Shown here: piece by piece, positions 35,241 through 39,934 of the stretch
Layout of the letters: every line of letters starts with the position of its first letter
How positions within the stretch are numbered: position 1 is the first letter of the stretch
Assembly (NCBI GenBank): GCA_022826685.1
Contig: JAJDUL010000054.1
Coordinates: forward strand, 1 to 64,000
Direction: 5' to 3'
DNA length: 64,000 bases
Source: Gemmatimonadota bacterium
GTDB lineage: Bacteria > Gemmatimonadota > Gemmatimonadetes > Palauibacterales > Palauibacteraceae
Position numbers and translations under genes: made by a program
The notes under the pieces: generated by a model
What the model saw: only the letters and a program-made list of their open reading frames with translations
Told to the model about the DNA's origin: nothing
Databases searched by the model: none

Positions 35241-36967
35241 GTCCGGTCGACTGGTGGATCGTCGCGATCTACCTCGCGCTCACCTTCGGCGTCGGCCTGT
35301 GGCTCTCGCGCCGGGCGCGCGGGAGTATCGTCGACTTTTTCGTCGGGGGACGCGCGCTGCCGTGGTGGCTCGCGGGCACATCGATGGCCGCGACCACCTT
35401 CTCGGTGGATACGCCGCTCTATGTCTCGGCCCTCATCGCGCGCCGGGGCATCGCCGGCAACTGGGAATGGTGGTCGTTCGGCCTCTCCCACCTCCTCCTC
35501 ATCTACCTCTTCGCGCGTCTGTGGCGCCGCGCCGGGATCGTCACGGACGTGGAACTGACGGAACTTCGCTATGGCGGCCGCCCCGCCGCCGTCCTGCGGG
35601 CCACGCGCGCCTTCCTGTTTGCCGTGCCGATCAACTGCATATCCATCGGCTTCGTCATGCTCGCCATGCGCAAGGTCGTCGAGGCCCTCGGGCTCCTCCC
35701 GGACCTGTCCGGCTGGATGCCGGGGGACGAGCGCCTGTGGGCCGTCGTGGCCCTCTCCATCTTCGTGCTCGCCTACGCGAGCATCGCCGGGCTGTGGGGG
35801 GTCGTCGCGACGGATTTCTTCCAGTTCTTTCTCGCCCTCTTCGGGGCCATTCTCGTGGCCGCCTTCGCCCTCGCGGAAATCGGGGGGATCGCGGAACTCA
35901 AGGCCCGGCTCGCGGATGCCGGGCGGAGCGATGTACTGGGGATGGTCCCCCGGCCGGGGTCCGAAGCCCTCCCGTTCGGGACCTTCCTCGCCTACCTCGG
36001 CATACAGTGGTGGGCGTTCCGCCGCTCCGATGGCGGGGGCGAATTCGTGCAGCGCCTCCTCGCCTGCCGCACCGAAGCGGACGCCGAGCGCGCCGCATGG
36101 TGGTTCGTGTGGCTTCACTACGTGGTCCGCGCGTGGCCGTGGGTGCTGGTCGGACTCGTGGCCGTCGTCGTCTTCCCGGATCTGGCAGATCCCGATCTGG
36201 GATACCCGATGCTCATGCTGCGCTACCTTCCCGCCGGCCTCCTGGGTCTCGTCGTCGCGTCGTTCTTCGCCGCCTTCATGTCGACCGTCTCGACACAGAT
36301 CAACTGGGGCGCGAGCTATCTCGTGAACGACCTCTATGCCCGCTTCATCGACCCGGATGCCTCGTCCGCGAGACTCGTGTTGCTGGGCCGGCTCGCCTCG
36401 GCCTGCATCGTTGCGGCGGCGACGGCCGCGGCGTTCTTCGCGAACGACATCGGGGCGCTCTTTCGTTTCATGATCGCCATCGGCACGGGGCCCGGAGCGG
36501 TGCTCATCCTGCGCTGGTTCTGGTGGCGGGTGAACGCCTGGGCCGAACTCGCCTCCATGCTCGCCGGCTTCGCCATCGCGCTCTGCTCTTATCTCCCGGC
36601 GTTCGGCGCGATGGAGTTCGGTACGCGGCTCGCACTGACCGCCTTCGGGTCGGCGGCGGTCTGGCTTCCCGTGATGTGGCTCACGCGCGCCGAGCAGGAG
36701 GCGACGCTGCTCGAGTTCTATCGACGGGTGCGGCCCGCCGGACCGGGCTGGCGCGCGATCCGTGAGCGCGCGGGCATTTCTCCCGACCTTCCCCTCCGCG
36801 AGGCGCTCCTGCGGACGGCCGGCGCCACGCTGCTCCTCTTCGGGGCGATGTTCGCCCTCGGCGCCACGCTGCTGCTCGAGCCGCGGACCGCCGCCCTCTC
36901 CGCCTGCTTCGCCGCCCTGGGTGGAGGCGGGCTCTGGATCCTGCGCACCCGGCGGGCGCTCCGGTAG
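35237..36967 (+). CDS. Sodium:solute symporter, candidate anhMurNAc/muropeptide importer
   Basis: A 576-aa SSS/SLC5 permease with about 14 transmembrane segments: start VDWWIVAIYLALTFGVGLWL, sodium-site region TSMAATTFSVDTPLYVSALI, and AAFMSTVSTQINWGASYLVN late. The TTG start overlaps nagZ (TTGA), making it the last gene of the murQ-anmK-nagZ unit. Known importers of these sugars are AmpG (MFS) or MurP (PTS), neither present here. The operon position therefore suggests this permease imports MurNAc, anhMurNAc or GlcNAc-anhMurNAc. That is inference from context; homologous SSS proteins carry many solutes. Confidence 0.85.
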   Translation: MSPVDWWIVAIYLALTFGVGLWLSRRARGSIVDFFVGGRALPWWLAGTSMAATTFSVDTPLYVSALIARRGIAGNWEWWSFGLSHLLLIYLFARLWRRAGIVTDVELTELRYGGRPAAVLRATRAFLFAVPINCISIGFVMLAMRKVVEALGLLPDLSGWMPGDERLWAVVALSIFVLAYASIAGLWGVVATDFFQFFLALFGAILVAAFALAEIGGIAELKARLADAGRSDVLGMVPRPGSEALPFGTFLAYLGIQWWAFRRSDGGGEFVQRLLACRTEADAERAAWWFVWLHYVVRAWPWVLVGLVAVVVFPDLADPDLGYPMLMLRYLPAGLLGLVVASFFAAFMSTVSTQINWGASYLVNDLYARFIDPDASSARLVLLGRLASACIVAAATAAAFFANDIGALFRFMIAIGTGPGAVLILRWFWWRVNAWAELASMLAGFAIALCSYLPAFGAMEFGTRLALTAFGSAAVWLPVMWLTRAEQEATLLEFYRRVRPAGPGWRAIRERAGISPDLPLREALLRTAGATLLLFGAMFALGATLLLEPRTAALSACFAALGGGGLWILRTRRALR

Positions 36968-36988
36968 CCCGCGAGGCGGTTTCGCGGC

Positions 36989-37017
36989 TTGACCACAACA
37001 TATGGTGTAGTTATCAT
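36989..37017 (+). promoter_or_regulatory. Sigma70-type promoter upstream of nrdJ
   Basis: TTGACC (36989-36994) and TATCAT (37012-37017) are separated by exactly 17 bases. This is the best -35/-10 pair seen in the window. The predicted start is near 37024, giving an nrdJ leader of about 270 bases. Confidence 0.7.
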
Positions 37018-37040
37018 CTGGAGGCCACCACATATAGCGG
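36993..37040 (+). promoter_or_regulatory. Two NrdR-like boxes overlapping the nrdJ promoter
   Basis: Against the NrdR consensus ACACWATATATWGTGT, the 16-mer at 36993-37008 (CCACAACATATGGTGT) agrees at 13 positions and the one at 37025-37040 (CCACCACATATAGCGG) at 11. Their centres are 32 bp apart, about three helical turns, as is usual for paired NrdR sites. The first box lies inside the promoter spacer and the second just after the expected start, ideal for repression. Confidence 0.65.
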
Positions 37041-37044
37041 TACG

Positions 37045-37094
37045 TGTGGAAAAAACACGCATTTTGTGTGGAAAGGCTGTGGAGTCGTGGAAAA
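37045..37094 (+). promoter_or_regulatory. Cluster of DnaA-box-like TGTGGAAAA repeats
   Basis: TGTGGAAAA (37045-37053), TGTGGAAAG (37067-37075), TGTGGAGTC (37078-37086) and CGTGGAAAA (37086-37094) repeat at 22 and 11 bp for the first three. A reverse GATCCACAG lies at 37104-37112. The DnaA box is TGTGGATAA (reverse TTATCCACA), so most copies match six to eight of nine positions. DnaA control of nrd genes is known in E. coli; here it is only a suggestion. Confidence 0.4.
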
Positions 37095-37193
37095 CCTCCC
37101 CACGATCCACAGCGATCGCATACGAAGAACCAGAAACGATGGGCGCGGGGTACGTTGATCTCCGCGCCCGTCAGGCTTCCCGGCCTAGGCCGG
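37077..37193 (+). ncRNA. Structured nrdJ leader RNA with three hairpins
   Basis: Hairpin 1 (37077-37112) pairs CTGTGGAGTCGTGG with CCACGATCCACAG, 13 bp with one bulged G. Hairpin 2 (37141-37169) pairs GGGCGCGG with CCGCGCCC. Hairpin 3 (37180-37193) is the perfect palindrome CCGGCCTAGGCCGG. All lie between the predicted transcription start and the intrinsic terminator at 37220. I see no cobalamin-riboswitch B12 box. A candidate 'nrdJ' RNA motif has been described by comparative genomics; whether this leader belongs to it needs a covariance-model search. Confidence 0.55.
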
Positions 37194-37219
37194 CATTCGA
37201 CTCGCGCGGTCGTCGGGTC

Positions 37220-37239
37220 CCGGCCGAAGCCGGTTTTTT
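37220..37239 (+). terminator. Intrinsic terminator/attenuator in the nrdJ leader
   Basis: CCGGC-CGAA-GCCGG (37220-37233) is followed by six T (37234-37239), a textbook Rho-independent signal. It lies 55 bases before the nrdJ start and downstream of the nrdJ promoter. Its 5' arm CCGGCC (37220-37225) is complementary to GGCCGG of hairpin 3 (37188-37193), so alternative folding could relieve termination. It could otherwise simply end the upstream symporter transcript. Confidence 0.75.
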
Positions 37240-37294
37240 CCGCGAATTGGCTTGATTTGTGGACGGTCGAGAACAGGAAGGCGGGGGGGCGGCA

Positions 37295-39934
37295 ATGAAT
37301 CCACCGGATGTGGCGGTGCGGGAGGGCGCGTCGACGAGCGCCCCGGTACGGGGTGAAATGCGGGTGGGATCCAATGCCAGGCCGGCCGACCTCGCCGAGC
37401 CGGGACTTGCCGAGAACGCGCGGACAGTGCTGGCGCGCCGGTATCTGAAGAAGAATGACCGCGGCGAGCCCATCGAGGGGCCGCGCGACCTCTTCTGGCG
37501 CGTGGCCGATGTCATTGCGTCGCAGGATGGCCGCTACGGGGCGACGGACGAGGAGGTCCTCGAGCGCACGGAGCGCTTCTATCACCTGATGGCCGACGGC
37601 ATCTTCGAGCCGAACAGCCCCACGCTCATGAATGCCGGGCGTCCGCTCGGGCAACTCTCCGCGTGCTTCGTGCTTCCCGTTCCGGACAGTCTCGACGGCA
37701 TCTACGAGACGCTGCGGGACATGGCCCTCATCCATCAGAGCGGAGGCGGCACCGGGTTCGGCTTCAGTCGCCTTCGTCCTTCCGGTGACGTCGTCAAGTC
37801 GACGATGGGCGTGGCGAGCGGCCCGGTCAGCTTCATGGAGGTCTATGACGCCTCGACCGAGGCCGTGAAGCAGGGCGGGACGCGACGGGGCGCGAACATG
37901 GGCATCCTGCGCGTCGATCATCCGGACATCCGCCACTTCATCGAGTGCAAGGCGGACAAGACCCGGATCACGAATTTCAACATCTCGGTCGGCGTCACGG
38001 ACGCCTTCATGGCGGCGGCCCGGACGGGTTCGGACTACGATCTCATCAGCCCGAGGACCGGCGACGTCGTGGGTCAACTGAACGCCGAGGAGGTGTTCTC
38101 GAGCATCATCTCCAGCGCGTGGCGGAACGGCGAGCCCGGGGTCTTCTTCATCGACGAGGCGAACCGCTACAACCCGGTCCCGCACCTCGGCGGCTACGAA
38201 GCCACGAACCCCTGCGGCGAACAGCCGCTGCTTGCCTACGACGTGTGCAATCTCGGCTCGATCAACGTTGGCTACTTCGTCGACGATCAGGGTCGGATCG
38301 ACTGGGACGGGCTCGGCGAGGCCGTGCACGAGTCGACCCATTTCCTCGACAACGTCATCGATGCCAACCGCTACCCGCTCCCGAAGATCGAAGACTTGTC
38401 CCAGCGGATCCGCCGCGTCGGCCTCGGGATCATGGGATGGGCCGACATGCTCGTAAGGATCGGCGAACCCTACGGCTCCGAGCGCGCCGTCGAACTCGCG
38501 CGCGAGTTGATGGAGTTCGTCGACGAGGAGTGCAAGGTCGAGTCCGAACGGCTGGCCGCCGAGCGCGGCGTCTTCCCCGAGTGGGAGCGATCGATCTGGG
38601 GTCCCGACGAGACGTGCGCGCGGGACGCCGACGGCGATCGGATCCGCCCCGAACGCCGGCTCCGCAACTGCAACCTGACGACGGTCGCCCCCACGGGGAC
38701 CATCTCGATCATTGCGGGGTGTTCAAGTGGGATCGAGCCGCTGTTCGCAGTCGCATTCATGAGGAATCAGGCAGGCGTGCTGATGCCGGATGTGAATCCG
38801 GACTTCGTGCGCCGTGCGAAGGAAGGGGGTTGGTACTCCGAGGAGCTGATGCAGCGCATCGCCGACGAGGGCCACATCCACTTCGATGAAGTGCCGGGGG
38901 ATGTCCAGGGGATCTTCGTTACGGCGCACGATGTTCCGCCCGAGCAGCACATTCGCATGCAGGCGGCATTCCAGGCGCACTGCGACTCCGCCATCTCGAA
39001 GACGTGCAATTTTGCGACGACCGCCACGGAGGAGGACGTGCGCAAGATCTACGAGATGGCGTACGAGTTGCGGTGCAAGGGGGTCACCGTCTACCGCGAT
39101 GGGTCGCGCGACGAGCAGGTTCTGTCGACGGGCAGTACGGCGAAGGATGTCCAGCGTCAGACGAGCGAGAGCGGCTCGGCCGTTGCGGCGGACGGAGTCC
39201 AGCTCGAAGCTGTCGATGTGGAGCCCGAACTCGCCGGGGATCTCGCGGGCACGCTGGACCGGCTCGCCGCCGCGGAGGTGCAGAACAGCGAACTTCAGAC
39301 GCACAACCGGAAGCTCGAGAAAGCCGTCGAGGAGAAGCAGCGGCGGATCACCGAGCTCGAAGGTTCCAGAATGCGTCGCGTCGAGAGACGGCAGCGACCC
39401 GCCGTTCTGCGGGGCCACACCCGGCAGATCGAATCGCCGCTGGGCACGATGTACGTGACGATCAACGAGGACGATCAGGGTCGCCCGTTCGAGGTCTTCG
39501 TCGCCCTCGGCAAGACCGGAGGGGCGGCGATGGCGGATGCCGAAGCCATTGGAAGGCTGTGTTCGCTCGCCCTGCGCTCGGGGATTTCACTGCGCGATGT
39601 GCACAAGCAGTTACGCGGGATCTCTTCCGACCGGGCCGTCGGACTCGGCGCGAGCAAGGTGCTCTCCGGCCCCGACGCGATCGCTCAGGTCATCGAGCGC
39701 TACCTCGAGGAGAAGGAAGGGATTCAGCAGACGCTTCCCATCGAGGATGTCGAGACCGCCCGGAGAAAGAACACGAACGGGGGCGCCCGGTCGTCGCAGC
39801 GCCCCGTGATCGAACGTTACCAGGAGTCGGCGGCCCGGCTTTTCATGGGCGTGTGCTCGGAGTGCGGGAGCAGCCTCGCCTTTGAAGAAGGCTGTGCGAA
39901 GTGCTACGCTTGCGGCTACAGCGAGTGCGGCTGA
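37295..39934 (+). CDS. nrdJ: Class II (B12-dependent) ribonucleoside-diphosphate reductase
   Basis: The protein is 879 aa. It reduces ribonucleotides to deoxyribonucleotides with adenosylcobalamin, in aerobic or anaerobic conditions. Motifs are NSPTLMNAG, QLSACFVLPV, the catalytic Asn305-Pro-Cys307-Gly-Glu309, CNLGSINVG and VAPTGTISIIAGCSSGIEP. A predicted coiled coil (about 652-693, QNSELQTHNRKLEKAVEEKQ) links to a TSCPD-like domain (GTMYVTINEDDQGRPFEVF). The C-terminus holds a Cys-rich tail (CSECG, CAKCYACGYSECG) for re-reduction. ATG at 37295 is preferred; GTG 37259 would add 12 residues. It appears to be under NrdR control and leader attenuation. Confidence 0.95.
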   Translation: MNPPDVAVREGASTSAPVRGEMRVGSNARPADLAEPGLAENARTVLARRYLKKNDRGEPIEGPRDLFWRVADVIASQDGRYGATDEEVLERTERFYHLMADGIFEPNSPTLMNAGRPLGQLSACFVLPVPDSLDGIYETLRDMALIHQSGGGTGFGFSRLRPSGDVVKSTMGVASGPVSFMEVYDASTEAVKQGGTRRGANMGILRVDHPDIRHFIECKADKTRITNFNISVGVTDAFMAAARTGSDYDLISPRTGDVVGQLNAEEVFSSIISSAWRNGEPGVFFIDEANRYNPVPHLGGYEATNPCGEQPLLAYDVCNLGSINVGYFVDDQGRIDWDGLGEAVHESTHFLDNVIDANRYPLPKIEDLSQRIRRVGLGIMGWADMLVRIGEPYGSERAVELARELMEFVDEECKVESERLAAERGVFPEWERSIWGPDETCARDADGDRIRPERRLRNCNLTTVAPTGTISIIAGCSSGIEPLFAVAFMRNQAGVLMPDVNPDFVRRAKEGGWYSEELMQRIADEGHIHFDEVPGDVQGIFVTAHDVPPEQHIRMQAAFQAHCDSAISKTCNFATTATEEDVRKIYEMAYELRCKGVTVYRDGSRDEQVLSTGSTAKDVQRQTSESGSAVAADGVQLEAVDVEPELAGDLAGTLDRLAAAEVQNSELQTHNRKLEKAVEEKQRRITELEGSRMRRVERRQRPAVLRGHTRQIESPLGTMYVTINEDDQGRPFEVFVALGKTGGAAMADAEAIGRLCSLALRSGISLRDVHKQLRGISSDRAVGLGASKVLSGPDAIAQVIERYLEEKEGIQQTLPIEDVETARRKNTNGGARSSQRPVIERYQESAARLFMGVCSECGSSLAFEEGCAKCYACGYSECG

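Follow-up and report, generated by a model that had tools for sequence, protein, structure and literature searches.

A genus-specific candidate leader RNA with a terminator-like rod in front of nrdJ in uncultured Gemmatimonadota

Introduction

The nrdJ RNA motif was reportedly described by Weinberg et al. in 2017. In two reports, this motif, which is family RF03034 in Rfam, is a candidate cis-regulatory RNA before nrdJ and is recorded in Streptomyces (PMC8388888, PMC8079986). A second comparable system is the nrdAB operon of Propionibacterium acnes: its promoter is reported to have one NrdR box, a cobalamin riboswitch is annotated in front of nrdAB, and a large part of the transcription stops ahead of the first gene (PMC3848588). 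Two further papers describe the NrdR boxes of Escherichia coli as two 16-bp palindromes with 15–16 bp between them (PMC12176259) and DnaA control as known for E. coli nrdA (PMC11317965). In a literature search on nrdJ RNA motifs, ribonucleotide reductase attenuation and riboswitches, Palauibacter and Gemmatimonadota, the titles and opening lines of abstracts among the matches listed held no description of the element that we report here.

This element lies between a predicted promoter and the start codon of nrdJ in a 64,000-nucleotide (nt) stretch of a Gemmatimonadota genome (contig JAJDUL010000054.1 of assembly GCA_022826685.1; hereafter, the window). Like RF03034, it is a candidate cis-regulatory RNA upstream of nrdJ; unlike the members of that family, it is not matched by the family's covariance model anywhere on the window. 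Like the P. acnes nrdAB leader, it precedes a ribonucleotide reductase operon, is accompanied by an NrdR box and has a point of early termination (here predicted); the P. acnes leader has a cobalamin riboswitch, for which no aptamer is found in the nrdJ leader of the window. A structured 5′ part, a GC stem followed by U6 before the gene and alternative pairings are shared with intrinsic-terminator attenuators in general, but here the alternative pairing leaves the 3′ arm of the terminator paired. In contrast to riboswitch expression platforms, the conserved part is the terminator itself, with no separate conserved aptamer seen.

Results

Locus, promoter and NrdR boxes

The source assembly (3.28 Mb in 73 contigs, completeness 90.85%) belongs to a genus of uncultured, mainly marine bacteria, and the nearest relatives of its NrdJ, at 95–99% identity, are Gemmatimonadota records, several of them named Candidatus Palauibacter. 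NrdJ is the single PF02867 protein found in the assembly, the class III enzyme NrdD was sought there and not found, and nrdJ is the only ribonucleotide reductase found in it. The gene upstream of the nrdJ leader, which by eye looks like a sodium/solute symporter, has the same orientation, and 21 bases separate its end from the −35 element of the computed promoter.

That promoter, about 300 bases upstream of nrdJ (Table 1), is the only sigma-70-like site in 36500–37600, where 0.1 would be expected. The pattern TAnnnT stands 17 bases past the −35 element in 16/16 leaders of the genus and in 10/10 leaders from other genera of the family, whose −35 reads TTGACC in nine and TTGCAC in one. As the leaders were located by their −35 letters, those of the genus being cut out at TTGACC or TTGCACC, only the −10 element is an independent test of the promoter. 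A promoter for nrdJ within 37239–37294 was considered and rejected, as the window scan for consensus promoters returned no site in this interval; TTGACC is visible by eye in the equivalent segment of several relatives, in none with a −10 element and not in all.

Two NrdR boxes accompany the promoter. The pair at 36993 and 37025 scores 24/32 against the NrdR box consensus, and is the best of the window at spacings of 31–32; the best pair with neither box in common reaches 17. The genome also carries an NrdR gene (179.8 bits against a cut-off of 124.65), so that the arrangement looked for in an NrdR regulon, two 16-bp boxes 15–16 bp apart over a promoter together with the regulator gene, is found here. 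Together, the promoter and the boxes place the expected transcript start near 37024, which would give a leader of about 270 bases. Sites resembling DnaA boxes (TTATCCACA, at most one mismatch) number 10 in 11 leaders of the window and its relatives, against 0.23 expected from shuffles, with one or two per leader in six leaders and none in five; their presence suggests DnaA control of nrdJ.

Table 1 Features of the nrdJ leader and gene in the window
Feature	Position	Strand	Basis or remark
nrdJ promoter, −35 TTGACC, 17-base spacer, −10 TATCAT	36989–37017	+	Sigma-70-like consensus scan
NrdR box 1 (CCACAACATATGGTGT)	36993–37008		Overlaps promoter; 13/16 to consensus
NrdR box 2 (CCACCACATATAGCGG)	37025–37040		11/16 to consensus; begins 32 bases after the start of box 1
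DnaA-box-like site (TTTTCCACA on minus strand)	37045–37053	−	The 64-kb window has 3 such sites (at most one mismatch), this one included
Hairpin 1	37076–37113	+	Pairing in 94.8% of cells (11 distinct sequences); deleted in G015
Hairpin 2	37138–37172	+	98.6% of cells paired; deleted in G015
Highly conserved core: rod plus U run	37178–37239	+	Conservation among genus leaders
Hairpin 3, CCGGC-CTAG-GCCGG	37180–37193	+	Read from sequence
Arm 1 (CCGGC)	37180–37184	+	Partners: arm 2 (hairpin 3), arm 4 (rod) or ribosome-binding region
Arm 2 (GGCCGG)	37188–37193	+	Partners: arm 1 or arm 3
Middle stem AUUCGAC/GUCGGGU, loop UCGCGCGGUC	37195–37218	+	Present in both folds
Terminator stem CCGGC-CGAA-GCCGG	37220–37233	+	Read from sequence
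Arm 3 (CCGGCC)	37220–37225	+	Partners: arm 4 (terminator hairpin) or arm 2 (rod)
Arm 4 (GCCGG) and U6	37229–37239	+	Terminator 3′ end in both folds
T6	37234–37239	+	Read from sequence
Ribosome-binding region (by eye)	37279–37290	+	Predicted pairing with 37175–37186, including arm 1, in the read-through transcript
nrdJ, adenosylcobalamin-dependent (class II) ribonucleotide reductase, 879 amino acids	37295–39934	+	NF006417, 1130 bits; TIGR02504, 694 bits; both above cut-off

Known RNA families

At Rfam gathering scores, no family is found on the window or on the loci of 20 relatives, and three matches on 36700–37500 (E 1.3–2.7) lie so far under the cut-off that we take them as chance. A sequence-only reading of the locus had seen no B12-box and had left room for a member of the described nrdJ motif. 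The first observation agrees with the search, in which neither the cobalamin nor the nrdJ model matches the nrdJ leader. The second idea failed, as the gathering score of RF03034 (40.3 bits) is not reached here; it is reached in 0/40 genomes, and the source genome itself (G000) gives no match at E ≤ 1. Weak RF03034 matches in nine of the 40 genomes (best E 0.07) lie on contigs other than that of nrdJ wherever nrdJ was located, which is the case for all but G040 and G047. The cobalamin riboswitch RF00174 likewise stays below its gathering score of 31.5 bits at nrdJ. The core RNA matches no RNA family searched. Elsewhere in G000, three cobalamin riboswitches exceed the cut-off, on contigs C66, C51 and C69 (L239–L241).

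A rod and its alternatives

The hairpins and the GC stem with six T that had been read between the promoter and the nrdJ start are present in the sequence, and the complementarities claimed for the arms, arm 2 with arm 3 and arm 1 with arm 4, are exact. The end of the leader has the sequence signature of an intrinsic terminator, a GC-rich stem directly before a U run on the transcribed strand. Terminator-like sites in 36500–37600 number three against 0.5 expected, all on the plus strand, two of them being overlapping reads of one A-rich hairpin at 37043–37060. The computed fold of 37040–37245 has −103.7 kcal/mol, against a shuffled mean of −76.5 (s.d. 4.3; z −6.31), and 0/200 shuffles fold as well.

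Arms 1–4 are mutually exclusive, pairing either as 1:2 plus 3:4, in three hairpins, or as 1:4 plus 2:3, in a single rod. The rod spans 54 nt (37180–37233), is followed directly by T6 and is built from the pairings 37180–37184/37229–37233, 37188–37193/37220–37225 and 37195–37201/37212–37218. Evaluated over 37173–37233, the three hairpins have −22.9 kcal/mol and the rod −31.5, better by 8.6, with a third state at −26.8 in which arm 4 is free (a small hairpin at 37173–37186 plus the inner rod); directly before T6, the rod has −31.3 kcal/mol. We computed folding along the transcript as the equilibrium at each 3′ end point, with the RNA 5′ end at 37024 or 37040. For RNA ending at 37219, the probability of hairpin 3 is 0.23–0.36; at 37225, the inner rod has 0.92–1.00 and the small hairpin 0.71–0.95; and the rod outer stem has 0.98–0.99 at 37233 and 0.73–0.99 at 37239, with hairpin 3 and the terminator hairpin at 0.00 each for both of these ends. 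With the last arm complete, one long rod is predicted in place of three separate hairpins.

The layout of an attenuator or riboswitch platform, as proposed from the sequence, holds for the mutually exclusive arms and does not extend to a classical terminator and antiterminator, the arm before the U run being paired in both folds. As pairing of arm 2 with arm 3 frees arm 1, which takes arm 4, the U run still comes after a stem. With arm 4 in a stem either way, the supposed antiterminator pairing of the sequence-only reading amounts to the inside of another terminator-like fold. No conserved conformer with arm 4 unpaired at decision time was found among 16 relatives. A candidate antiterminator, 37173–37177/37182–37186 plus the inner rod, has a probability of 0.71–0.95 in the window at RNA end 37225, but only 10 of the 16 relatives retain all five of its pairs, and the rod displaces it as soon as the RNA includes arm 4 (37233). 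We also set aside a long-range helix between the U run and an A tract further upstream (37045–37056), which is part of the lowest-energy fold of 37040–37245, with a probability of 0.88–0.94 at RNA end 37245, but has 0.00 in the leader to 37294; the A tract is variable among relatives, and a U run must exit the RNA–DNA hybrid before it can pair.

In longer transcripts, the rod outer stem is lost again. In the leader up to the ATG, 37175–37186, which is arm 1 with its 5′ neighbours, pairs with 37279–37290 in the ribosome-binding region, with probabilities of 0.91–0.99 at the paired positions, and the inner rod is kept. Across the full leaders of 12 close genomes, the rod outer stem has at most 0.26 and the inner rod 0.82–0.99, except in L111 (0.42), and GGAAGG before the ATG is mostly paired in 12/12 (unpaired probability 0.17–0.23). 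This predicted pairing suggests another role for the core, and together with the masking of GGAAGG it makes translational control a live rival, in which arm 1 and its 5′ neighbours would mask the ribosome-binding region in read-through RNA and the full rod would free it. We nevertheless judge such control improbable: the pairing is absent from the predictions for G015 and G006, where the rod has 0.96 and 1.00; other folds dominate in the full leaders of G013 and G004; the prediction is an equilibrium one in a G-rich stretch; and the U run would be left without an explanation.

Conservation of the core

The core is present in 16 of 17 genomes of the genus. The remaining genome placed in the genus (G012, leader L134) is without it and has an nrdJ 71% identical to that of the window, which may reflect its placement in the genus or an nrdJ of other origin. 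Across 12 close genomes, window included, the 61-base core is identical in all and fourfold-degenerate sites of nrdJ average 0.888 identity; as nrdJ too has an invariant run, of 58 bases, in the same genomes, this identity is not striking alone. More distant pairs are more telling. Between L110 and L123 (from G006), the core is 0.918 identical, against 0.488 at fourfold sites (n = 387), 0.731 in the promoter and 0.259 in the spacer to the ATG; between L110 and L124 (from G013), the values are 0.746 for the core (a 10-base insertion counted), 0.327 at fourfold sites (n = 361), 0.692 and 0.178. The core is the most conserved of seven segments in both comparisons, and this conservation beyond synonymous sites in distant pairs is the best evidence, drawn from sequence comparison, that the core has a function.

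The upstream gene of the window is also upstream in 3/3 close loci tested (the window, L026 and L029), and is not seen within about 2 kb at L022, L030 and L031 (G004, G013 and G006), where Amidase_3 proteins stand instead, along with a hexapeptide-repeat protein in G006 and G013. The core is kept at all three of these loci, showing that it goes with nrdJ; on the same ground we rejected the idea that the core is a terminator of the upstream operon. A fixed attenuator is a related alternative, in which the terminator merely lowers nrdJ expression or blocks read-through from upstream and answers to no signal. It would account for a stem before U6 in both folds without a conserved antiterminator, and for a same-strand upstream gene that ends so close to the −35 element. 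We consider it distinctly unlikely, as the core persists next to other upstream genes and a simple terminator need not keep its loops, whereas here the middle stem and loop lie within a core that is 92% identical when fourfold sites are 49% identical.

Other parts of the leader are less constant. G015 (L122) has lost the region of hairpins 1 and 2 by deletion but retains promoter, NrdR boxes and core, a natural experiment on the parts needed. In G006 and G004, a hairpin of different sequence stands in the place of hairpin 2, and those 60 bases fold no better than shuffles, of which 14/100 and 12/100 are as good. This turnover bears on the possibility that the terminated transcript of about 215 nt is a trans-acting small RNA that shares the nrdJ promoter. 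Promoter, structured body and terminator would form a complete unit for such an RNA; yet relatives have lost hairpins 1 and 2 or carry others in their place, the core stands in front of nrdJ in 16 genomes, and no second copy is found in the source genome (next best E 0.1). We regard this reading as quite improbable. Ribosome-mediated attenuation through a leader peptide seems very improbable indeed. An open frame of the kind does exist in the window, running from an ATG at 37139 for 38 codons through the core, but among the 12 leaders that have the ATG the frame into the core takes all three values, its length ranging between 4 and 53 codons, and 4/16 leaders do not have the pattern; with no conserved frame across the 16, a leader peptide from the ATG at 37139 was rejected.

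The rod itself is widely kept: its complementarity covers at least 15/18 pairs in 16/16 leaders, at least five T stand among the first eight bases after the stem in 15/16 genus leaders, and in RNA ending at arm 4 the rod outer stem has 0.74–0.99 in 14/16. G013 and G004 differ, with 0.00 for the rod outer stem, 0.80 and 1.00 for hairpin 3 and 0.00 for the terminator hairpin in RNA with the same end, and these folds count against one single conserved fold. In G006 (L123, 1332–1396), the U run reads TCTTGTCC and the rod has two additional outer pairs. The degraded U run and the gained pairs speak for the rod and against strong termination in that genome, where the rod may be more important than termination.

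That G006 keeps the core and loses the U run would also fit a protein-binding site, either on RNA or as DNA, where two palindromic stretches of 14 bp lie at a distance of 40 bp; the terminator shape would then be secondary. So would the conservation of letters beyond pairing, including the loop and the internal loop, and a direct repeat at 37178 and 37218. The presence of at least five T after the stem in 15/16 genomes points the other way, and the two U–G wobble pairs of the middle stem would be unexpected in a DNA palindrome. We give a protein site about the same low standing as the fixed attenuator.

Covariation

Alignment with relatives, which the sequence-only reading had proposed as a check, yields little variation in the core. 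Nine of the 16 core sequences entered the test, five of them distinct, the other seven being identical to that of the window. No rod pair is changed on both sides, and 404/500 shuffles are as good; the rod beats only the slid control, and that only on the percentage paired, and the three-hairpin structure scores like the rod. Over the five distinct sequences, 14/18 rod pairs are invariant, one-sided changes keep a pair in G015 (U–G to C–G) and in G013 (U–G to U–A), and three other pairs are disrupted in G013 and/or G004 (four cells in all). The core hardly varies, which leaves little for such a comparison to act on. For hairpins 1–3, a two-sided change occurs in 1/32 pairs, with 410/500 shuffles as high. 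Hairpins 1 and 2 keep their pairs over the 12 close genomes mainly through one-sided changes (Table 1), a weak support that does not exceed shuffles.

Range beyond the genus

A covariance search with the core covered 395 Gemmatimonadota genomes, 16 of the genus and 379 others, under stricter filters. The model finds the core at E ≤ 7.5e-15 in 15 genomes, every one a member of the genus; one further carrier, G003, stands outside the 395-genome sample. The 379 other genomes give chance-level matches only, 16 of them with a best E of 0.0014–0.09 where up to about 40 are expected at E ≤ 0.1, and in one of these 16 (G029) no nrdJ is found in the assembly. Viral contigs hold no exact match to a 21-base piece of the core.

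Leaders of sister genera have NrdR boxes and are unrelated in sequence. In genus g5, L135 (G025) and L139 (G033), both unrelated to the window leader, are 0.82–0.97 identical along the first 220 columns of the alignment (windows of 40 columns) and 0.38 nearer the gene, with fourfold sites at 0.39 (n = 135; L139 is a partial gene), and on these identities form another strongly conserved nrdJ leader. In genus g6, G021, G028 and G026 carry GGGGUGUACG...CACCCC, then two or three bases and T6–7, a different terminator-like hairpin about 90–100 bases upstream of the nrdJ ATG (L125, L126, L136); the T run is broken in G032 (L127).

We also scanned a class-wide set of 57 leaders, assembled from 60 fetched regions plus eight (68), less 37 that either showed no NrdR box pair with a score of ≥20 within 330 bases or were short, and 26 family leaders. 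A hairpin of −8 kcal/mol or lower before a T run occurs in 15/41 leaders outside the genus against 82/410 shuffles, and in 16/16 inside it against 57/160, the match in L123 being another hairpin and not the core. The scan picked up the g6 hairpin in G021 and G028, not in G026. The start-codon rule left 24 and 20 bases of two of the 41 (L170 and L200), which are little informative, and many of the T runs belong to DnaA-like boxes. The terminator excess over the phylum is modest, and we claim no class-wide attenuator.

Discussion

Our leading reading, held tentatively and falling somewhat short of probable, is that of a genus-specific cis-acting leader RNA that attenuates nrdJ in response to a signal. 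Transcripts would start at the NrdR-controlled promoter near 37024, the structured 5′ part being made first and the 54-nt rod with U6 next. The rod would halt part of the RNA polymerases at about 37234–37239, 55 bases before the start codon, and something that binds the nearly invariant rod, at its 3×3 internal loop or its terminal loop, would shift the share of read-through. Promoter, boxes, folds, conservation and position are results of computation, from which we infer termination in the cell and its regulation. In the original proposal of an nrdJ leader with an attenuator, the intrinsic-terminator-like end between promoter and start was well placed and goes with nrdJ; the classical switch layout was not borne out. 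Control by the rod would be a second layer behind NrdR on the only ribonucleotide reductase found.

A more specific version, in which the rod is sensor and terminator at once and represents a new compact riboswitch class, with the binding of a small molecule at the internal or terminal loop deciding termination, is in our estimate unlikely, though it deserves to be spelled out. The ligand of such a sensor would be tied to DNA precursor supply, as a deoxynucleotide, adenosylcobalamin or another class II cofactor, and might also control the masking of the ribosome-binding region. If so, the unrelated conserved leaders of sister genera would be parallel devices.

The established means by which bacteria control DNA precursor supply are NrdR and allosteric regulation. 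A conserved, terminator-bearing nrdJ leader points to further control at the RNA level in uncultured bacteria. It would add an RNA family to a gene class for which the cobalamin riboswitch is the known example, and the organism itself carries that riboswitch at other loci but not at nrdJ.
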